Assembly: GCA_030041215.1 (NCBI GenBank)
Contig: JASHOH010000121.1
Coordinates: 1-64,000 of the forward strand
Origin: Candidatus Sulfotelmatobacter sp.
GTDB lineage: Bacteria; Acidobacteriota; Terriglobia; Terriglobales; Acidobacteriaceae
Direction: 5' to 3'
Length of the DNA: 64,000 bases
Below the pieces are notes generated by a model. That model saw only the letters and a list, made by a program, of their open reading frames with translations, was not told the origin of the DNA and made no database searches. Both the position numbers and the translations under genes were made by a program. This document shows, piece by piece, positions 36,116-46,507 of the stretch (positions are counted from its first letter, which is position 1; each line of letters starts with the position of its first letter).

Positions 36116-37411
36116 TCAGATTTCCGCTTTCGATTCGAATAAGGCACCACGCAAACGGGCGCCGTAACTTGCCAGACGCTGCGCGAAATGAGGCCGAATA
36201 CCGGTGGCGCGGAACGTGCCGCGCACCTTGCCCGTCTCGTCGACGCCACGCCGCTCGAAAACAAAGATATCCTGCATGGCAATGATCTCGCCTTCCATTC
36301 CCGTGACCTCGGAAATGGAAACCACCTTGCGGGTGCCATCTGACATGCGTGCAACCTGCACTACCGCATGAATCGCGGAAGCAATCTGATGACGGATCGC
36401 CCGCTCGGGAATACTGAGATTCGCCATTGAAACCATGTTTTCTACGCGCGCCAGGGCGTCGCGAACGGAGTTGGCGTGAACTGTGGTCAGCGAGCCCTCA
36501 TGGCCGGTGTTCATCGCCTGCAACATGTCGAAAGCTTCTTCGCCGCGCACCTCGCCCACCACAATGCGGTCGGGCCGCATACGCAGGCTGTTGATCACAA
36601 GCTGCCTTTGGCGAACAGCGCCCTTGCCCTCGATGTTCGGGGGGCGGGTCTCCAGGCGAACCACATGTTCCTGCTTCAACTGCAATTCGGCGGCGTCTTC
36701 GATGGTAACAATACGCTCCGAGTTGGGAATGTAACCGGAAAGAACGTTCAGCAATGTGGTTTTGCCGGCACCAGTTCCACCCGATATCAGCAGATTCAAC
36801 CGTCCCTTGACCATAGTGGAAAGAAGCTCGAGCATGGCCTCGGTCAGGGTATGGTTCTCGATCATATTGCGCGCAGTGACCGGGTCACGTCCAAAACGGC
36901 GAATGGAAAGGCATGCGCCATCCAGAGCGAGCGGCGGGATGATCGCGTTTACACGGGAACCATCGGCCAGGCGCGCATCGACCATCGGAGACGATTCATC
37001 CACGCGGCGGCCCACGCGTGAGACGATGCGCTCGATGATCTGCATGAGATGCTGGTTGTCCTTAAATGACAACCCTGTTAACTCCAGTTTTCCCGCGCGC
37101 TCGATGTAAACCCGGTCGTAGCGGTTCACCAGGATGTCGGATACGGTTTGGTCCTTGAGCAGGGGCTCAAGCGGGCCCAGCCCGAAAATTTCGTCGAGAA
37201 TTTCGCGCGACAAGCGTTCGCGCTCAGCGAAACTGAGAGGAACAACTTCGCTGTTGACGGCATTGCGGATGAGCGCCAGAACTTCTTCGCGCGCGGAATC
37301 GCCGTTGGAGCGGCCGAGTTTTTCCAGATCGAGCCGGTCGAGAATTTTGCGGTGTAGATCAGCTTTTACCTGCTGATACTCGCTGTGCTCGAATGTCTGA
37401 AGGTTCGCCAT
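36116..37411 (-). CDS. cpaF: Tad pilus ATPase CpaF/TadA
   Basis: 431 residues. PulE/VirB11-type secretion ATPase. N-terminal helical domain, then Walker [11 protein letters not shown] (about 210-219), Asp box ([11 protein letters not shown]), Walker B-like ([20 protein letters not shown]) and His box ([13 protein letters not shown]). It powers pilin polymerisation. Its start is 6 bp after the cpaE stop codon. The gap to tadB (36000-36115) has no gene. Confidence 0.96.
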
Positions 37412-37417
37412 AAAACC

Positions 37418-38590
37418 TTATACCGTCTTGAACAGGGACCAGGCTTCCCGTTTTACATTTATGTCGTCGCGCGTAAGTTCGTTGGCCAGCCCGGAAAAAC
37501 AACGCGCGATGTCCGTCTGACTTTGCTCCATTACCGGGGTCCCGCGATCAATGGATGAGGAAATCGCGAAATACTGATTCGGCACCCGCCATAGCAATTT
37601 CACCCCTGCAGCATTTTCCGCCTCTGATTCGCTGAAGCCCGGCACCTTGCGAAAACGGTTGAGCACCAGGCGCAGGCGCTCGCGGCCTCCCGTCTCTCCC
37701 AAGTATTGTTGCACGCGCGCCGCACTCCATAAGGAGGCCACGTCGGTGCAGGCCACCAGCAGCACGCACTCCGACAAATTCGCCACCAGGCGGCTGACGG
37801 CGTCGAGCCGTGAAGAATTATCCACTACAACATAACGGTAGTGCGCGACCAGCATGTCAAACAGGCGGACAAACTCGGTGGTCGAAGGTTCGATCGCCGC
37901 CGGCACGCTGCTGCCGGCCAGCAGTTGCAGCCCTCCGGAATGGCGGGTCATGAAACTTTCCATTAAAGAGCTATCCATACGGTGCAGGTTGCGCGTAGCG
38001 TCGGTCAAATTGAACACTGGCTTCACGTTTAGGTGCAAGGCCGCGTGACCCAGAGGCGCCAGATCCACAAGCGCGCTGCTGCCATGCGCCGATTGCAGTG
38101 CGAGCGCCAGGTTTACCGCCACCGTGGTCGATCCACTGCCGCCTTTGGCATTCACAATGGTGAATATCTTGCCGCGGAGCCCTTCTTTCTGCACCCGCCG
38201 CTGGGCCGTCGTCAGCCGTACAAAAGCTTCCAGAAGATCCGTAGTGGTCGTGGGGCGCTCGATGAATTCCCGCGCCCCCGCACGCATGGCGTTGACGATT
38301 ACCTGCGGCTGGTTGAGATTTCCAATGGCGAATACGGCGCAGTCAGGAAGCTCCTGATGCAGCAGTTCAATGGCCCGCATTGCCGGAGAGGGATTGTCGG
38401 CTGGAATATCAACCATGAGAACGTCGGGATTCGCCGCCTGCACTCGCCGTGTGATGGGATCGGAGACGGCTACTGGAAAACTGGCGCACGTATGGGCCGT
38501 CCGGGCTACGCTGGTTCCATCCACCAACACCTGCAGCACCGTTCGCTGCTCGTTGTCGGTGGCCATGATTACGACTGAAAGCTCTGGCAT
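37418..38590 (-). CDS. cpaE: Tad pilus localisation protein CpaE/TadZ
   Basis: 390 residues. N-terminal atypical receiver domain (about 5-125: NPDVLMVDIPADNPSPAMRA, lacking the full acidic pocket) and C-terminal MinD/ParA-like ATPase (about 140-365: IVNAKGGSGSTTVAVNLALA). The Walker A lacks the usual lysine after Gly-Ser, as is common in TadZ. Members place the secretion apparatus at the pole. Next in line between cpaC and cpaF. Confidence 0.93.
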   Translation of the reverse strand: MPELSVVIMATDNEQRTVLQVLVDGTSVARTAHTCASFPVAVSDPITRRVQAANPDVLMVDIPADNPSPAMRAIELLHQELPDCAVFAIGNLNQPQVIVNAMRAGAREFIERPTTTTDLLEAFVRLTTAQRRVQKEGLRGKIFTIVNAKGGSGSTTVAVNLALALQSAHGSSALVDLAPLGHAALHLNVKPVFNLTDATRNLHRMDSSLMESFMTRHSGGLQLLAGSSVPAAIEPSTTEFVRLFDMLVAHYRYVVVDNSSRLDAVSRLVANLSECVLLVACTDVASLWSAARVQQYLGETGGRERLRLVLNRFRKVPGFSESEAENAAGVKLLWRVPNQYFAISSSIDRGTPVMEQSQTDIARCFSGLANELTRDDINVKREAWSLFKTV

Positions 38591-38610
38591 AAACTACTGC
38601 TTGAAGCCGC

Positions 38611-40029
38611 TTACTTGCCCGGCTTCTTTCCATCGAATTTATCGTTATTGATGAAAGGCTCAGGATTCTTTGGAGTAGCCGGCGCCTCATTGCTCGCCGA
38701 AACCCGGTGCACCGTGCAGAGCACCATCAATTCCGAATTGCTCTTTTGAGCGCTCTTGCTCTTGAAAAAAGTGCCGAGAATCGGAATATCTCCCAGTCCC
38801 GGAATCTTGTTCCAGACATCCGTCACCCGATTGTCGATCAAACCCGCTATCACAAAACTTTGGCCGTCCCGCAATTCAAATTCAGTCTCTGCCTTGCGCG
38901 TGCTCAAGGCTGGAACGGTAAATCCGGAAATCGTCAGTGCGTCGGCATAATCGAGCGTGCTTACTTCCGGTTCGACCGTAAGGTGAATGTTGCCGTTGGG
39001 CATGATTACCGGAGTGAAATCCAATTTGACGCCGAATTCTTTGAACTGAATCGTCACGGCCGTGAAGCCTTGACCTGGTTGAACGATGGGGAAAGGAAAC
39101 TGGCCGCCGGCGAGGAAACTGGCCTTCTTGCCATTGACGGCAATCAGATTCGGCTCGGCTAGAATCTGCAACAGGTTCTTAGTTTGCAAGGCTTCGATGA
39201 CCGCGCCAAAGTGAATGTCAGGACGGAAAAGGAATAAGTTCAGAACATTACTGACCGTTTCGCTGGTAGTGAAAGGGCCCGTCTGTCCGGTGGTGGTGCT
39301 GAGCTGCTGCGATCCGAATCCGCCGTATTGCCCGGTAGTGGAGGTTGCAATTGTGTTGGCAGCGCCAGTAGAAAGGAAATTCGCACCAAGCTGGGTCATG
39401 GCGGTGCGGTCAACCTCGGCGAACTTCACCTCGAGCAAGATCTCCTGCGCGCCTACGGGGCCGAACGTCAGCACATTGATTACATTCTTCGAATAGGCGC
39501 TGGCCAATTCTCCGGCGCGTTTTGCCACATCCTCAGTGCTAACGTGACCGGACAGCACAATCGCCGCCCGCGAAGGCGTGACTGTAATTTGCTCGTCCGG
39601 GAACACGCGATGTTCTTCCTCCGCGCAGGCGCTCACATCCACGTCCACCCGAAGATCAAAGCTGCGGGAGCGCTCATTCTCGTCCCAGATCAGCAGCGAA
39701 ACCTCGCCCGGGGCACGGCCATGAACCAGGATTTGTGTGGGAGTGATTACGGTGGCGTAGGCGACATTGGGATCAGTGACAGAAATGCGTTTCAAACGCT
39801 CTGTTGTATTAATCAAAAGAGACTTGTCGACCATCACTCGCAGAGGCGCTGCACCTTGCGGCTGCGAGGGCGGCGGCAGAGTGGCCTGGCTCGCCGCTGC
39901 AGGCACAGGTTCCTGAGCCGACGGAGACTGTTGCGATAAGGGCTCGATGTGGAAGAAGCGCGGGAATGCATACCCTTGCGCTGCAAACGCCAGCGCAAAC
40001 GCTGCAAAAACCGTGATGCGAAGCTTCAT
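38611..40029 (-). CDS. cpaC: Tad pilus outer-membrane secretin CpaC/RcpA
   Basis: 472 residues from ATG at 40029 with signal peptide (LRITVFAAFALAFAAQGYAF). Pilus-secretin N-terminal domain (RVMVDKSLLINTTERLKRIS, APGEVSLLIWDENERSRSFD), short BON-like segment, and secretin domain (about 190-445: VGAQEILLEVKFAEVDRTAM, GFTVPALSTRKAETEFELRD, FVIAGLIDNRVTD). It forms the outer-membrane channel. The charged tail (PFINNDKFDGKKPGK) follows the beta domain. Confidence 0.95.
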   Translation of the reverse strand: MKLRITVFAAFALAFAAQGYAFPRFFHIEPLSQQSPSAQEPVPAAASQATLPPPSQPQGAAPLRVMVDKSLLINTTERLKRISVTDPNVAYATVITPTQILVHGRAPGEVSLLIWDENERSRSFDLRVDVDVSACAEEEHRVFPDEQITVTPSRAAIVLSGHVSTEDVAKRAGELASAYSKNVINVLTFGPVGAQEILLEVKFAEVDRTAMTQLGANFLSTGAANTIATSTTGQYGGFGSQQLSTTTGQTGPFTTSETVSNVLNLFLFRPDIHFGAVIEALQTKNLLQILAEPNLIAVNGKKASFLAGGQFPFPIVQPGQGFTAVTIQFKEFGVKLDFTPVIMPNGNIHLTVEPEVSTLDYADALTISGFTVPALSTRKAETEFELRDGQSFVIAGLIDNRVTDVWNKIPGLGDIPILGTFFKSKSAQKSNSELMVLCTVHRVSASNEAPATPKNPEPFINNDKFDGKKPGK

Positions 40030-40098
40030 CCTGTGATTTTTCTCCAATTGAGGAAACCTGATAATCCGCTACAACTCAACATTCCTTCCACCCCGAGC

Positions 40099-40962
40099 CT
40101 ATTGTGGTTGTTCACTGCCCTGCTCCGGAAATTTTACGATGTCGGGTTTCTTATCGCCCTGATATACCTCAACGCTGAGCACCGATGGAGCGGGTGCCGG
40201 TTTCTCAGTTTTTGGCTGCTTGACGGAGTGAACCACCACCGGGTGCGGTGCAGGTGGCGTTGCACCCTTGTACAGGCCCTTGGCACTGGCAGCATCGACC
40301 GGATCCTGGTGCGTATCGAGCGGGTTGCGCAACGAGAGCTGAATCTTGCCCTCCGAACTAGCCAGCGTCAACCGCTCAGCGTCTTCGGGTGAAGTCAACA
40401 GCGTGATTACAGGAGTGTTCTGAGCTTCGCCGGAGGCATTACGTTCCAGTGTGTGGCCAGAAGCAATCACCGCAACATTCTGGAGAACCGTGGTTGTCTG
40501 GGTTTCTGAACCGCCCGCAGGTGTCCCCGTCAGCAACACATCCACCCTGGTTCCCGGACCCACAAATCCCGCCACAGAAACCACTTCATTGACACGAACA
40601 GAAACCGCCCGCATGCCCGGCGGAATCAGCGCCGGTAAGCCCGCTCCGGCGTTTTCCGGAGCCAGCTTGCTAGGCAGAATGAATTCGCCTTTACTGATAG
40701 GTATGATTACCCCGCGCCCCAGCACTTGAGACTTCCTGGCGAAAACCCCTGCGGGAAGCCCCGATGCGGGAAATCTGGCGACCCGCACGTCGCGATCTTC
40801 GATTCGCGCTCCCACCTGAACGTCGTCAGCAGCGACTAAGACGTCTAAGCCAGGTGCACTGCTCGGACCCTTCCCTTGCAGGTTTTTATAGACCATGAGG
40901 CTGGCCATGGCCCCCAGCGCCAAAGCCAGGACTCCGATCATTAACAGACGACTGCGGTTCAT
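40099..40962 (-). CDS. cpaB: Tad pilus assembly protein CpaB/RcpC
   Basis: 287 residues. N-terminal membrane helix (LLMIGVLALALGAMASLMVY), SAF domain (about 44-110: DVLVAADDVQVGARIEDRDV, GRGVIIPISKGEFILPSKLA), and RcpC/CpaB core (ISVRVNEVVSVAGFVGPGTRVDV pattern; LLTSPEDAERLTLASSEGKI). Periplasmic, thought to gate or link the secretin. First tad accessory gene after the pilin. Confidence 0.95.
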   Translation of the reverse strand: MNRSRLLMIGVLALALGAMASLMVYKNLQGKGPSSAPGLDVLVAADDVQVGARIEDRDVRVARFPASGLPAGVFARKSQVLGRGVIIPISKGEFILPSKLAPENAGAGLPALIPPGMRAVSVRVNEVVSVAGFVGPGTRVDVLLTGTPAGGSETQTTTVLQNVAVIASGHTLERNASGEAQNTPVITLLTSPEDAERLTLASSEGKIQLSLRNPLDTHQDPVDAASAKGLYKGATPPAPHPVVVHSVKQPKTEKPAPAPSVLSVEVYQGDKKPDIVKFPEQGSEQPQ

Positions 40963-41045
40963 AATGCTCCATCAGCACGGCAGATGCGCCTGGTCCCGCA
41001 GATAGCAGGTACGGACTGGTCGCTGCTCCGTGCCGTTGAATTCTC

Positions 41046-41207
41046 TTACTGAATCGAACTGGCGACGCTGGAGAAAACATTGTTCGCGTTGGAGCCGATC
41101 AGCCGGATCGTACCCACCACGATAACCAGGATGACGGCGAGCATGACAGCATATTCGGCGATGTCCTGCCCTTCGTCCTCCTGCCATAGTCTTCGAAAAT
41201 GATCCAT
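41046..41207 (-). CDS. flp: Flp/Fap-type pilin of the Tad locus
   Basis: A 53-residue prepilin from ATG at 41207, with GGAGG 8 nt upstream. It begins MDHFRRLWQEDEGQDIAEYA. Leader ends at Gly13; mature part QDIAEYAVML plus hydrophobic stem and NANNVFSSVASSIQ. From the Gly onward it differs from the orphan pilin at 16761-16916 at only three positions (Q/R, T/S, A/S). It heads the cpaB-tadC run; the prepilin peptidase (TadV) and pseudopilins (TadE/F) are not in the window. Confidence 0.94.
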   Translation of the reverse strand: MDHFRRLWQEDEGQDIAEYAVMLAVILVIVVGTIRLIGSNANNVFSSVASSIQ

Positions 41208-41377
41208 CGTTTCTGCCTCCTAATAAACAACACACTTCCAAACAGGGCCTTCTATCAGACACAAAAGGCGCGAAACAGCAAAAAATTTCGAAAACGAACT
41301 TTCACCTAGACCACAGGGCCTCAAGAGGCCTCGGGACTCGCATCCCTTTCGTTGCATTTGTCCGCGGAGGGTTCTGT
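41208..41377. promoter_or_regulatory. Promoter-containing gap upstream of the Tad operon
   Basis: It must contain the flp promoter. A palindrome GGCCTC-AA-GAGGCC (41317-41330) lies about 110 bp upstream of the flp start and could be an operator or a transcription end of the opposite strand. I cannot place the -10/-35 with confidence. Confidence 0.35.
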
Positions 41378-41554: not shown

Positions 41555-42301
41555 CTACGAGAAAATTCTATTCTCCAAGTCTCTCTCCGCCTGCACGACA
41601 TGTTCCGGCCGCCCCAGGTCGCGCCAATAATATTCGTCTGCACGGAAAGCGAGAATCTTTTCTCCCTGCCCAACCAGCCGCAAATAACAATCAATGATCG
41701 AAAATGCTCCTTCTTCCCGCATCAGAGAAAAAATCCGCGGCGAAATAACGTGAATTCCCGAAAAACCCAGCGCGCTCACATTCGACGAACGCGCGACCAT
41801 CTTGGAACACCCCTCGCGTCCCACCTGCCTTCCACACAGCCGTGCATTTTCGTCGAACAACAAATATCGGGACGTCTGGCGCGGTTGGACGGCCAAAGTC
41901 GCCAGCGCACCCTGCTCAGAATGAAACCGCAACATGCGCGCAAGATCAATTGTGCTGATTACATCTACGTTGTGCAGAATAAATGGTTGTTGCGATCTGC
42001 TCGAGCCTTCCAGAAAAAAACAGCTCGCCTTCTTTAGTCCGCCGCCAGTATCGAGCAGGGTATCCTCCCGTGAAAATTCCACTCGCATGCCGAAATTCTG
42101 CTTCGATTTCAAATAGTTGGCCACTGCATCGGCGAAGTGATGCACATTAACAATGACCTCGTTAACTCCAAACTCACGCAGACGCGCAAGGGTAATTTCG
42201 AGCAACGTCCGTCCGCCGACTTCTACCAGAGCTTTCGGGCGATCATTGGTAAGCGGCCGCAAACGCGTGCCGAGCCCCGCGGCGAGAATCATTGCTTTCA
42301 T
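41555..42301 (-). CDS. Sugar-phosphate nucleotidyltransferase (MurU-like)
   Basis: 248 residues. Nucleotidyltransferase signature MILAAGLGTRLRPLTNDRPK at the N-terminus, metal-binding Asp in LHNVDVISTIDLA, and SALGFSGIHVISP. Its 42301 start overlaps the previous (kinase-RapZ-C) gene by 4 bp (ATGA), so both are translated together. In the MurNAc recycling route, a kinase (AmgK) phosphorylates free sugar at C1 and MurU makes UDP-MurNAc; the pairing here suggests the same logic. Substrate not provable from sequence; mannose-1-P or GlcNAc-1-P is also possible. Confidence 0.88.
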   Translation of the reverse strand: MKAMILAAGLGTRLRPLTNDRPKALVEVGGRTLLEITLARLREFGVNEVIVNVHHFADAVANYLKSKQNFGMRVEFSREDTLLDTGGGLKKASCFFLEGSSRSQQPFILHNVDVISTIDLARMLRFHSEQGALATLAVQPRQTSRYLLFDENARLCGRQVGREGCSKMVARSSNVSALGFSGIHVISPRIFSLMREEGAFSIIDCYLRLVGQGEKILAFRADEYYWRDLGRPEHVVQAERDLENRIFS

Positions 42302-43725
42302 TGCAAAGAGGTCTCCAGCTCGCGGTGCCGAACGATCACATCAATTCCATTGTTTTTGCGCAGATGTTTGGCCAGTTGCTCGGCCAGATACACCGAGCGA
42401 TGCTGCCCGCCGGTGCAGCCGAACGACACCATTAGGCTTTTGAATCCGCGCCGCTGATAATTGGCCACGCTCGCATCCACCAGCGACATCACGCTGGCCA
42501 TGAACTGATGCACGCTCTCCTGCTGATTTAAATATTCCATTACTGGCGCGTCTTTGCCGGTGAGAGGCTTGAACCGCTCTTCGCGCCCGGGATTCGGCAG
42601 GCTGCGGCCGTCAAAGACAAACCCTCCGCCATGCCCGGTGTCGTCATTGGGCAACCCCCGGTGAAAGGAAAAACTGGTGATACGAACCGTCAGATTCTCG
42701 CTTTCAGAAGCCAGTCCTTGCAGCTTTTCCGAGCCGAGCATGCTGTTGAAAGCGTCCATCAGCGTGGGCAGAGCGATCGGGAGCTTAACATTGTGCAGTA
42801 GCCAGCGCAGGTTTTTCAGCGCGTAGGGCACGCTTTGCAGAAAATGAGACTTGCGTTCGTAGAATCCGCGAAACCCATACGCACCTAAAGCCTGCATGAT
42901 GCGCACATACACGAACGCATAATAATGATGCAGGAAGGCTTCCCGATCCAAAGCAGTCAACTCTGAGGCTTTCTCTATATACACGTCAAGCAACTGCTGC
43001 CGCAGCGCCGGAGACAAGTCGGCTTTGGCATCATAGAGCAAGGAAGCGATGTCATACTGTAACGCGCCTTTGCGTCCGCCCTGATAATCCAGAAAAAATG
43101 GCTGCTCATGGCGCAGCATGATGTTGCGCGACTGAAAATCACGATAAAGAAAAAAATCCGACGGTGCGCTCAGCAGAAACGTCGTCAGCGAATCGAAATC
43201 GTCTTCCAGCGCCTGTTCATTGAATGGAATGCCCGCCAGCCGCAGAAAATAGTATTTGAAGTAATTTAGGTCCCACGCTATCGATTGCCGGTCAAAGCTT
43301 CCGCGTGGATAGCAGATGCTATAGTTCAAATCGCGGCCCGCTTCAATCTGAAAGCGCGGGAGAATCGTAACAACTTTGCGATAAGCTTCAACCACCGCCG
43401 GAGCCGTCTTTTCTCCCTCACGATTCTTCGACAGAAATTCGAAAAGTGTTAAATCTCCGAGGTCTTCCTCCAGATAAGCTCCGTGATCGAGATCTTCTTC
43501 ATAAATTTCCGGAACCGGCAATCCATGTCGCCTAAAATGCCGCGAAAATTCCAGGAAAGCAAGATTTTCTTCACGAACGCCATACAAAATCCCAATGGCG
43601 CTGGCCTGTTCATTGCTCAGCCGGAGGATATTTCGCCCCGATCCGCCAAGCTGCCCTTGCAGCGGCTGAACGCGGGTGGGCGGCGCACCGAAGTGGTGTT
43701 CGAAAAGTTTTTGCAGAACGTCCAT
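42298..43725 (-). CDS. Aminoglycoside-phosphotransferase-like kinase fused to RapZ C-terminal domain
   Basis: 475 residues. Residues about 1-330 form an APH/AmgK-like sugar kinase: catalytic loop LYRDFQSRNIM (Asp and Asn) and metal-binding Asp in FFLDYQGG. Residues about 345-470 match the RapZ C-terminal domain: SFSFHRGLPNDDTGHGGGF, FDGRSLPNPGREE, TGKDAPVMEYL, and the diagnostic SFGCTGGQHRSVYLAEQLAKHL block. In E. coli RapZ this C-terminal domain senses glucosamine-6-phosphate and binds the GlmZ RNA; the usual N-terminal Walker ATPase is replaced here. I infer a sugar 1-kinase in cell-wall recycling whose RapZ part may sense amino sugar phosphate. Confidence 0.9.
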   Translation of the reverse strand: MDVLQKLFEHHFGAPPTRVQPLQGQLGGSGRNILRLSNEQASAIGILYGVREENLAFLEFSRHFRRHGLPVPEIYEEDLDHGAYLEEDLGDLTLFEFLSKNREGEKTAPAVVEAYRKVVTILPRFQIEAGRDLNYSICYPRGSFDRQSIAWDLNYFKYYFLRLAGIPFNEQALEDDFDSLTTFLLSAPSDFFLYRDFQSRNIMLRHEQPFFLDYQGGRKGALQYDIASLLYDAKADLSPALRQQLLDVYIEKASELTALDREAFLHHYYAFVYVRIMQALGAYGFRGFYERKSHFLQSVPYALKNLRWLLHNVKLPIALPTLMDAFNSMLGSEKLQGLASESENLTVRITSFSFHRGLPNDDTGHGGGFVFDGRSLPNPGREERFKPLTGKDAPVMEYLNQQESVHQFMASVMSLVDASVANYQRRGFKSLMVSFGCTGGQHRSVYLAEQLAKHLRKNNGIDVIVRHRELETSLQ

Positions 43726-43876: not shown

Positions 43877-45112
43877 ATGACCGACCGCCTTTACTACCAC
43901 GATTCTTTTCTCTATAACTTCGACGCTGAGGTCCGCGACGCAGTCGAATCCCCACGCCCCGCACTCATTCTTGATCGCACCGCCTTCTACCCCACCAGCG
44001 GTGGTCAGATCCACGATACGGGATGGATTACCACTGTTACTTCGGAATCCGGCCCTACAGCCCGCATGCGCGTGACGGAGGTCGCGGATACGGAAGACGG
44101 CCACATCGTCCATTACCTTGAAGCCCCACTCAAGAACATACAGCCGGGAACTCGCGTTCGCGGCGAGATCGACCCGGTCCTCCGCCGCGACCATATGCAG
44201 CAACACTCCGCGCAGCACGTTCTCTCAGCGGCTTTCGTGCGCCTGTTCGGGATGCCAACCGTTTCTTTTCACATGGCCGATGACTACTGCTCCATCGATC
44301 TTGACACGCCTTCGCTCACGAAAGAGCAGGTCGAGGCCGCTGAGAAGCTGGCCAACGAAATCATGATCGAGAATCGTGCGGTCGACGTTCGCTACGTGAC
44401 TCGCGACGAAGCCGCCAGCCTCGGCTTGCGTAAACTTCCTCCGGCAGAGCGAGATCAGCTTCGTCTGATCGATATTCGCGATTTCGATTTGACGGCCTGT
44501 GGCGGCACGCATGTCAGCCAGACCGGGCAGATCGGCGGCATTCTGCTGCGCAAATTTGACAAGGTTCGCCAGGGATACCGCGTCGAATTTGTCGCCGGAC
44601 AGCGCGCTATCGCGACCGCGCGCCGCGATTACACCACGCTGACCGAAACCGCTGCGCTGTTTTCATCGCACATTTACGAAGTCCCACAGCAAGTGCGCAA
44701 GTCACTGGAAGAAATCCGATCTTTGCGCAAGCAAGTCGAGCAATCCCAAGACGAACTGGCTGTTGCACAGGCCACAGCACTGCTGGCAGAAACTCCAGCG
44801 AGCAATGGCCGCAAGCTGATCGTGCGCACGTTCGCCGATCGCGATCTGAATTCTATAAAGTTGCTTGCACAGAAACTTACGCGGCAATCGAAGGTAGTCA
44901 TAGCATTTCTGGCGACCACGTCGCCGCAGCCGTCGCTGGTATTCGCGCAATCCGCCGGGCAACCCTACGATATGGGCGCTCTGATTAAAGAAACATTGGC
45001 GAGGCTCGGCGGGCGCGGCGGCGGCAGCAAAGACCTGGCTCAGGGAGGCGTGCCCCAGGCAGATGGGATCGATGCTGCACTTGCGGCTGCAGCGCAGCTT
45101 GTGGCGAACTAA
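43877..45112 (+). CDS. Alanyl-tRNA editing protein (AlaX-type with DHHA1)
   Basis: 411 residues. The free-standing editing domain removes Ser or Gly from mischarged tRNA-Ala. Zinc motif HSAQHVLSAAF (HxxxH, near 113) and CGGTHVSQTGQIGG (near 212). N-terminal beta part RTAFYPTSGGQIHDTGWI. The C-terminal DHHA1 domain (about 290-405) has GGRGGGSKDLAQGGVPQADG. No aminoacylation domain. Divergent from the kinase-RapZ gene. Confidence 0.95.
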   Translation: MTDRLYYHDSFLYNFDAEVRDAVESPRPALILDRTAFYPTSGGQIHDTGWITTVTSESGPTARMRVTEVADTEDGHIVHYLEAPLKNIQPGTRVRGEIDPVLRRDHMQQHSAQHVLSAAFVRLFGMPTVSFHMADDYCSIDLDTPSLTKEQVEAAEKLANEIMIENRAVDVRYVTRDEAASLGLRKLPPAERDQLRLIDIRDFDLTACGGTHVSQTGQIGGILLRKFDKVRQGYRVEFVAGQRAIATARRDYTTLTETAALFSSHIYEVPQQVRKSLEEIRSLRKQVEQSQDELAVAQATALLAETPASNGRKLIVRTFADRDLNSIKLLAQKLTRQSKVVIAFLATTSPQPSLVFAQSAGQPYDMGALIKETLARLGGRGGGSKDLAQGGVPQADGIDAALAAAAQLVAN

Positions 45113-45187: not shown

Positions 45188-46507
45188 ATGGCTGATTGTG
45201 ACCAATTCCGGCAGATGCGCGAAACCGCTCTCAAGATCTTCAATCGCGCACTGGCCGAGTCGTCAATTGCCAAGGCATTCGACCGCCACGTGAATTGTGA
45301 GCGCGGAGTGCTGCGGGTCTGCGAAGATCTGTACGATTTGCATTCCTACTCACGCGTGCTGGTGATTTCAATCGGTAAAGCTGGGCATACGATGGTTGAG
45401 GCGCTGGCGCAGCAGGTGGGCGAGAGCGCGGTCGAGGGCATCGTAGCAAGTTCGATCGTTGCGCCTGTGCATGTGCGAGGGTTTCGATACTTCTGCGGTG
45501 GGCATCCGACTCCGAATGCAGAATCGATTCAGGCTGCGAAAGCCATTCGGAAAGCTCTGGAGGGGCAGACAGCATCTTCGCTGGTGATATTCATGATCAG
45601 CGGCGGAGGGTCTTCCATTGTTGAGCAGCCCATCGACGATGAAATTTCTCTTGCTGATCTGATTGCTGTATATCGAGCACTGGTGCATTCGGGCGCGCCG
45701 ATCGCTGAGATTAATGCCGTCCGCAAACATTTGTCAGCAGTGAAGGGAGGGCGGCTGGCGCAGGCAGCCTTTCCGGCGCAGCAGGTTTCATTATTTGTTT
45801 CCGATGTGCCGGATAAAACTCCCGATGCGCTGGCTTCGGGTCCGACAATGCCCGATTCGACAAGCGCCGAGGATTGTTATCGCATCGCCGAAAAACACGG
45901 CTTGCTGCCGCAGTTGCCGCATTCAGCGCGTGAGTTATTCGAGCGGCATGCTCTGGAGGAGACCCCGAAGTCAGATGATCCGGCATTTTCCCGCTCGCGC
46001 TGGTGGACGGTTTTATCGAACCAGACCGCCGTTGAGGCCGCGAGCAGGGAGGCGGAACGAGCAGGATTCCAGGTGCATGTGGATAACTCCTGCGACGACT
46101 GGGATTACGAACGGGCGGCCGAATACTTGCTGAACCGCATACGGGAACTTAAGAAACAACACGGGCCCGTTTGTCTGATTTCTGGTGGGGAAGTGACGGT
46201 CCGCGTGGTGAATGGCGGAGTAGGCGGACGCAATCAGCAATTCGCGTTGGCTTGTGCAGAAAAAATTGCAGGCCAGAAGATCACGGTGCTGAGTGGCGGC
46301 ACGGACGGCGTGGATGGGAACAGTCCGGCTGCGGGAGCCGTGGTGGATGGAAGTACGGTGGAACGCGCGCGACACAAGGGATTAGATGTTCGGGCAGCGC
46401 TGGAAAAATTCGATGCATATCCTTTATTCAGCAGATTGCGCAATGCGATTGAAATTGGGCCGACAGGGAATAATGTTCGCGATCTGCGTCTGATGCTAGC
46501 TTACTGA
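45188..46507 (+). CDS. Glycerate 2-kinase (MOFRL family)
   Basis: 439 residues. Phosphorylates D-glycerate to 2-phosphoglycerate. N-terminal DUF4147: VISIGKAGHTMVEALAQQVG, GGHPTPNAES, VIFMISGGGSSIVEQP, INAVRKHLSAVKGGRLAQAA. C-terminal MOFRL: ISGGEVTVRVVNGGVGGRNQ, VLSGGTDGVDGNSPAAGAVV. It starts 75 bp after alaX on the same strand; a link in function is unclear. Confidence 0.95.
   Translation: MADCDQFRQMRETALKIFNRALAESSIAKAFDRHVNCERGVLRVCEDLYDLHSYSRVLVISIGKAGHTMVEALAQQVGESAVEGIVASSIVAPVHVRGFRYFCGGHPTPNAESIQAAKAIRKALEGQTASSLVIFMISGGGSSIVEQPIDDEISLADLIAVYRALVHSGAPIAEINAVRKHLSAVKGGRLAQAAFPAQQVSLFVSDVPDKTPDALASGPTMPDSTSAEDCYRIAEKHGLLPQLPHSARELFERHALEETPKSDDPAFSRSRWWTVLSNQTAVEAASREAERAGFQVHVDNSCDDWDYERAAEYLLNRIRELKKQHGPVCLISGGEVTVRVVNGGVGGRNQQFALACAEKIAGQKITVLSGGTDGVDGNSPAAGAVVDGSTVERARHKGLDVRAALEKFDAYPLFSRLRNAIEIGPTGNNVRDLRLMLAY

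Follow-up and report, generated by a model that had tools for sequence, protein, structure and literature searches.

The genome of a soil bacterium (Candidatus Sulfotelmatobacter sp.) encodes a sugar kinase and the C-terminal domain of RapZ in one open reading frame (ORF), beside a MurU-like gene. This arrangement raises the question of what the RapZ-type domain does on such a kinase. The window analyzed here is the whole 64,000-nucleotide stretch of DNA that holds the two genes. An earlier note on this DNA had proposed that the domain senses GlcN6P and ties the salvage of cell-wall sugar to the amino sugar level, without GlmZ RNA.

The fusion gene and its MurU-like neighbor

Both genes lie on the minus strand, with the following features:

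41555..42301, minus strand: MurU-like nucleotidyltransferase, 248 aa (NF045761, 127.5 bits; PDB 4y7t)
42298..42301, minus strand: 4-bp ATGA stop/start overlap of the fusion gene and the MurU-like gene (sequence)
42298..43725, minus strand: fusion gene, AmgK-like kinase plus RapZ C-terminal domain, 475 aa (ORF, Pfam, NCBIfam)
42313..42690, minus strand: RapZ C-terminal domain, residues 346-471 (PF22740, 129.2 bits; model compared with 5o5s)
42394..42417, minus strand: C-T-G-G-Q-H-R-S, residues 437-444, phosphate pocket loop that fits C-x5-R-S (alignment; excerpt of PMC5737377)
42583..42594, minus strand: NPGR, residues 378-381, with Gly380 at the position of the E. coli RapZ pocket residue His190 (alignment)
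42622..42636, minus strand: inserted glycine-rich loop GHGGG, residues 364-368, a mark of the subfamily (alignment)
42787..43725, minus strand: kinase part, residues 1 to about 313, APH fold (PF01636, 45.7 bits; PDB 3csv)
43123..43146, minus strand: kinase motif YRDFQSRN, residues 194-201, presumed catalytic loop (alignment of 47 fusions)

In the kinase half, the PF01636 match spanned residues 51-250, and 3csv was both the only kinase chain in PDB matched by sequence and the best fold match. D196 and N201 of YRDFQSRN, which we take to be the catalytic loop by assignment from APH-fold kinases, were kept in 46 of the 47 aligned fusions, the remaining row being gapped. The AmgK models were the only sugar-kinase matches of the kinase in NCBIfam at E<=0.001; their scores of 58.8 and 58.0 bits were far below the equivalog cut-offs of 550 and 500, respectively (NF045759, NF045698). 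The best NCBIfam model of the neighbor was MurU (NF045761), again under the cut-off (250). Its best PDB match was 4y7t, a MurU chain entered as 'Nucleotidyl transferase', followed by 8hhd, an entry named MurU. Since both proteins scored well under the curated cut-offs, they are called AmgK-like and MurU-like here, and not AmgK and MurU. The kinase shares with AmgK, the MurNAc/GlcNAc anomeric kinase of Pseudomonas and Caulobacter, its APH fold, its pairing with a MurU-like gene and its best sugar-kinase model; however, it reached only about 59 bits against cut-offs of 500-550, carries the RapZ C-terminal domain and falls in a clade apart from most sampled stand-alone kinases. Likewise, the neighbor has the best model and best solved relatives expected of MurU, the MurNAc-1-phosphate uridylyltransferase, but its score was about half the cut-off and its gene overlaps the fusion gene. 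As an AmgK, the kinase would phosphorylate MurNAc/GlcNAc at C1.

The C-terminal half of the fusion matched PF22740 (RapZ_C) far above the cut-off of 27 bits. No match to PF03668, the N-terminal ATPase/P-loop half of RapZ, was found in the fusion at E<=0.001, and the full-length RapZ model NF003828 gave 122.4 bits without reaching its cut-off of 244. Pfam gave no match to the HAD family in the fusion protein. The AlphaFold model of the whole fusion had a mean pLDDT of 90.4 and a pTM of 0.71; given this pTM, the relative placement of the two predicted domains is less sure than the domains themselves. The kinase-RapZ fusion, its overlap with a MurU-like gene and the lack of the ATPase half were thus confirmed as the earlier note had described them, and its likening of the pair to AmgK and MurU held at the level of family resemblance.

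The MurU-like gene adjoined the fusion in all 25 loci fetched from the 41-genome and 297-genome sets described below, the window's own included, and the neighbors in the other 24 were 52-75% identical to that of the window. In a wider scan it lay downstream of the kinase in 71 of the 80 best loci. Three of the other nine were contig ends and the remaining six were all Bacteroidota (L106, L110, L122, L124, L126 and L129), with no MurU-like gene found in the sequence examined; their MurU-like enzyme may be encoded elsewhere or not needed. Near stand-alone kinases (n=23), the MurU-like gene was upstream in 20 loci, on the other strand in one and not within reach in two. No conserved neighbors beyond the kinase/MurU-like pair were found in the 80 loci, and promoter and terminator scans gave signals no better than shuffled sequence.

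Downstream of the pair, a run of Tad/Flp-type pilus or secretion genes occupies 36116-41210 (minus strand), including a T2SSE ATPase and a TadZ/CpaE-like ATPase (Pfam), genes that look secretin-like and CpaB-like by eye, and a small ORF near 41050-41210 that by eye resembles a Flp pilin. On the other side, on the plus strand, are a divergent AlaX-like alanyl-tRNA editing protein with a DHHA1 domain (43877-45112) and a glycerate 2-kinase-like protein with DUF4147 and MOFRL (45188-46507), both below NCBIfam cut-offs.

Spread of the fusion and the pocket of its RapZ-type domain

The fusion was full length in 21 and in pieces in two of 41 genomes, comprising the window's own and 40 relatives. Among 297 genomes drawn from the phylum, seven had the full-length fusion, and many others had a stand-alone kinase instead (26-37% identity, among the matches listed). 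A contig scan with the kinase part recovered at least 567 relatives, of which the best 80 were retained. Of these, 78 loci extended through RapZ_C, including one with a frame shift (L072), one in two pieces (L085) and one with a stop (L125); the other two ran off the contig. By record titles, mostly of metagenome assemblies, the best 80 of at least 567 came from Acidobacteria, Bacteroidota, Ignavibacteria, Calditrichota, KSB1, Neomarinimicrobiota, Elusimicrobia, Opitutia and one Deferribacteres. The survey of other phyla that the earlier note had called for thus placed fusion relatives in at least six of them. An assembly error as the origin of the fusion was rejected because the fusion recurs in the genomes of relatives and across phyla. 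No relative was among 92 pattern matches in viral contigs. One fusion (L027:1498-2970) has a kinase-RapZ_C linker longer by 18 residues.

The fusion was the only RapZ_C protein found in 24 of 36 checked genomes of other groups, whose completeness was not stated; this suggests that the domain is no partner of RapZ there. A full-length RapZ (350.3 bits, over the cut-off) is also present in the window genome, on the same contig and about 22 kb away. This gene (L141:5188-6132, contig C3, beyond the window) is flanked on one side by an ABC transporter gene and then YicC, and on the other by a stretch without family match and then a creatininase-family gene; no PTS neighbor was present among the ORFs scanned. 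In G011, a relative of the same genus, the fusion and another RapZ-like protein are accompanied by a further protein carrying a RapZ-type C-terminal domain (C33:88419-88784, in a 305-aa frame).

The 47 aligned rows comprised the window, L006, L021 and 44 of the best 80 loci. The alignment omitted L125 for a stop codon in its fusion frame, L065 and L117 because contig ends cut them, L072 and L085 because they matched in two pieces, L114 and L123 because they begin at residue 27 and, as redundant, 29 further closely related acidobacterial loci. In the pocket loop, C437, T438, G440, H442, R443 and S444 were invariant in all 47 fusions and G439 was kept in 46, so that every row had a C-x5-R-[ST] loop. 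E. coli RapZ binds malonate or sulphate through H190, H252 and R253 and the backbone of T248 and G249, according to an excerpt of PMC5737377. Four of these five residues were kept in the fusions; the exception was H190, which was Gly in 47 of 47. The 14 RapZ rows had H (5), Y (5) or N (4) at this position. The GHGGG-type insert was likewise constant in the fusions (G364, G366, G367 and G368 in 47/47, with H or N at residue 365) and absent from all 14 RapZ rows. The basic C-terminal tail that binds RNA was absent from the fusions; in the portion of PMC7073468 available, this tail is described as restricted to Enterobacteriaceae and absent from most RapZ proteins outside the enterobacteria.

In the domain tree, a 100/100 branch split the RapZ_C domains of fusions (52) and separate ORFs (5) from 14 RapZ domains, and the domain of the fusions is a distinct subfamily. 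In the kinase tree, the RapZ_C-linked kinases grouped at 100/99 together with two that lack an adjacent RapZ_C (G380 and G551), and the other 26 stand-alone kinases fell outside this clade, a placement to be read with caution given the long branches. The window's copy grouped with Acidobacteriota inside a mixed-phylum group, a position that suggests transfer. The domain was modeled alone with a pLDDT of 89.9 and superposed on the E. coli RapZ C-terminal domain (5o5s) with a Z of 20.7 and an rmsd of 1.4 over 123 residues. Thus, the fusion shares with RapZ/YvcJ the PF22740 domain and its phosphate pocket loop, but it differs in lacking the P-loop half and the RNA-binding tail, in the His190 to Gly change, in the GHGGG insert and in its separate 100/100 branch.

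These differences bear on two earlier proposals. With the His190 to Gly change in 47 of 47 fusions, the insert and the missing tail, and a full RapZ also in the genome, the domain as a GlcN6P sensor is unsupported as stated. By contrast, the idea of control without GlmZ was borne out to the extent that GlmZ-like RNA control is unlikely, because the RNA-binding tail and the ATPase half are absent.

Split genes and the AnmK pattern

The Bacteroidota set consisted of 218 genomes drawn around G354, which was chosen for its fusion; G355, a known fusion carrier, was also drawn. RapZ_C was found in 26 of the 218, as a fusion in 21 and as a separate ORF of 133-135 aa in five. The separate ORF lay between the AmgK-like kinase and the MurU-like gene in four of these five genomes (order kinase / RapZ_C / MurU-like in L178, L181, L182 and the G466 locus, L180 and L213); in G551 it was apart from the kinase. 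In L178 and L181, the only split loci that were family-scanned, AmgK and MurU were again the best sugar-kinase and nucleotidyltransferase models. Kinase and RapZ_C shared a frame with a stop between them in L178, L180 and L182 and had different frames in L181, and all four RapZ_C ORFs of split loci had their own ATG. In both trees the split genes branch from within the fusions and are therefore secondary. A free-standing RapZ_C chain is consistent with a distinct enzymatic step; a separate regulator, a simple nonsense split or readthrough are possible alternatives. One genome (G380, locus L212) had a fusion-clade kinase followed by a MurU-like gene without RapZ_C, and no AnmK match; the domain may have been lost here naturally.

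AnmK makes MurNAc-6P, and in Pseudomonas MupP strips its phosphate before AmgK acts (PMC5371407, in excerpt). In the Bacteroidota set, for which every match was listed, 19 of the 26 genomes whose kinase is linked to RapZ_C had AnmK, against none of 48 with a kinase without RapZ_C and 132 of 144 with neither. The first two groups differed strongly (Fisher's test, p 3e-12, with related genomes that are not independent). However, AnmK was not enriched over Bacteroidota without such a kinase (19/26 vs 132/144), so the contrast with the kinase-only genomes may reflect lineage. In Acidobacteriota, AnmK was found in six of seven fusion genomes, all six from one family, in which AnmK occurs in 32 of 32 genomes regardless of the fusion. 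Of the stand-alone-kinase genomes of this phylum, AnmK was found in 5 of the 91 whose kinase match was listed, and in 48 of 191 once any genome without the fusion was counted as a probable carrier if it had a listed kinase row or at least two matches. Because AnmK is universal in the family of the six fusion genomes and present in 48 of the 191, the contrast in Acidobacteriota was given little weight. Among the 36 fusion genomes of other groups, 31 had AnmK over the cut-off, a figure that has no base rate for comparison; AnmK was missing from 7 of 26 in Bacteroidota, 5 of these 36 (including all three Opitutia) and G329.

The window genome has both AnmK and MurQ, and MurQ was over the cut-off in all seven Acidobacteriota fusion genomes, the window's included. 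MurQ there is a second possible fate of MurNAc-6P and a rival use of it. Mutual exclusion of the fusion and MurQ was considered and rejected, as all seven fusion genomes of the phylum draw have MurQ. None of the four best of seven HAD_2 matches in the window genome reached the strict MupP cut-off, the highest score being 98.3 bits against 359; the role of MupP could fall to a Gph-like HAD enzyme. NF045760 was discarded as a model of MupP, since it is YtpR.

Candidate roles of the RapZ-type domain

The reading that we tentatively prefer, slightly ahead of a sensor, is a MurNAc salvage module in which the RapZ-type domain acts as a MurNAc-6P cysteine phosphatase that feeds the fused kinase. Its observed base is how the parts are fused and ordered, how widely they occur, their presence as split genes, the invariance of the loop, the change in the pocket and the distribution of AnmK. 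The two genes would form a compact module for the salvage of a cell-wall amino sugar, most likely MurNAc. AnmK, where present, would supply MurNAc-6P; the RapZ-type domain would remove the 6-phosphate through its C-x5-R-S loop, replacing the unrelated HAD phosphatase MupP; the kinase half would turn MurNAc into MurNAc-1-phosphate; and the MurU-like enzyme would then yield UDP-MurNAc, bypassing MurA/MurB. We infer MurNAc as the substrate, the phosphatase activity and the order of these steps.

C-x5-R-S is a signature of cysteine phosphatases, and in C-x5-R phosphatases the loop lies between a strand and a helix. The AlphaFold model predicts the same setting in the fusion, between strand 430-437 and a helix beginning at 443. 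In this the domain resembles the PTP and DSP enzymes, but it differs in having no clear fold match to them. Foldseek with the modeled domain found RapZ alone at E<=0.001 and no phosphatase, and in a second fold comparison phosphofructokinase scored Z 6.9 and the dual-specificity phosphatase 7ncy Z 5.2, tied with unrelated folds. The lack of a clear phosphatase match excludes nothing. The likeness to MupP (NF009696) concerns the proposed step only, MurNAc-6P to MurNAc before the kinase (excerpt of PMC5371407); MupP itself is an HAD enzyme, while the RapZ domain has no HAD match. Excerpts of PMC9841335 report that C247A and C247S both abolish the activity of E. coli RapZ, and the authors suggest a 'specialised catalytic function' of the -SH group; their own account of these mutants is a loss of RNA binding, which was also seen. 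The same source describes pocket density in a RapZ crystal with GlcN6P as 'likely a chemically transformed product'. YvcJ, a homologue of RapZ, has 'NTPase and phosphatase activities' according to PMC7525490 (in part), and HpaP, among the mutants of distant species cited in PMC7073468 (in part), is an ATPase and phosphatase by the title of the cited paper. In the portions of these sources at hand, the phosphatase activity of the homologues is not assigned to the C-terminal domain. The literature search, confined to one library, found no paper joining RapZ with AmgK and, among the matches listed, none joining RapZ with CX5R phosphatases.

The genomic patterns bear on the phosphatase as well. 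Three steps and three ORFs in the split loci fit it, as do the G380 kinase without RapZ_C in a genome without AnmK and a pair without other conserved neighbors, as expected of a self-contained route. AnmK in 31 of the 36 other-group fusion genomes, together with no MupP over the cut-off among the four HAD_2 matches scanned in the window genome, weakly favors it. On the other side, C-x5-R-S is a short motif, MurQ is present in seven of seven Acidobacteriota fusion genomes and AnmK is missing from several fusion genomes.

Allosteric control is nearly as likely as the phosphatase and quite possible: the domain would bind an amino-sugar phosphate (GlcN6P or MurNAc-6P) or a UDP-sugar and turn the kinase it is fused to on or off, thereby coupling salvage to the precursor level. 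This is the view of the earlier note, widened to ligands other than GlcN6P. The E. coli RapZ C-terminal domain binds GlcN6P with a KD of 10 nM (PMC7073468, in excerpt), most of the pocket is kept, a binding domain fused to an enzyme is a common regulatory design, and the Bacteroidota AnmK pattern also suits a MurNAc-6P sensor. However, Gly at the His190 position and the GHGGG insert make GlcN6P a weak candidate ligand, an invariant Cys is not obviously needed in a backbone-lined binding site, and the domain also occurs as its own ORF beside the kinase. Taken together, the invariant loop, the split genes and the Bacteroidota AnmK pattern suit a catalytic step no less well than a sensor. Of the earlier interpretation as a whole, the pathway stood at the level of family resemblance and GlcN6P sensing did not, leaving a sensor as one of two live options.

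It is unlikely, though still to be reckoned with, that the pair serves the salvage or synthesis of a different NDP-sugar (GlcNAc or an envelope sugar) and that RapZ_C is a phosphatase or sensor for that sugar. The distance of the kinase and the nucleotidyltransferase from the AmgK and MurU equivalog cut-offs, the lack of conserved cell-wall recycling neighbors in 80 loci, the separate clade of RapZ_C-linked kinases relative to most sampled stand-alone kinases and the absence of AnmK over the cut-off in 3/3 Opitutia and 7/26 Bacteroidota all agree with it; against it, AmgK and MurU were the best sugar-kinase and nucleotidyltransferase models both in the window and in L178 and L181, and the best solved relatives of the nucleotidyltransferase are MurU chains. 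An RNA-binding regulator like RapZ in E. coli is highly improbable. The domain family is common to both, and the E. coli C-terminal domain alone binds GlmY (PMC7073468, in excerpt), but the fusions lack the basic tail, whose RNA-binding form the same excerpt restricts to Enterobacteriaceae, and the N-terminal half needed for the tetramer.

A wider form of the phosphatase proposal is doubtful on present grounds. It holds that the C-terminal domain of RapZ is of ancient origin and acts on sugar phosphates as a phosphatase of a so far undescribed C-x5-R type, here the MurNAc-6P phosphatase missing from the AmgK/MurU-like salvage of Bacteroidota, Calditrichota, Elusimicrobiota, Acidobacteriota and others, and that RapZ is the same enzyme reused as a sensor and RNA adaptor. 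The abolished activity of E. coli RapZ C247S had raised the question of the root role of the domain (PMC9841335, in excerpt), and the fusion opens that role to test. If the phosphatase reading is true, a gap in cell-wall recycling would be filled for several phyla, and UDP-MurNAc could be reached there without MurA/MurB. If the domain is instead a sensor, salvage would be under direct metabolite control, with no RNA.
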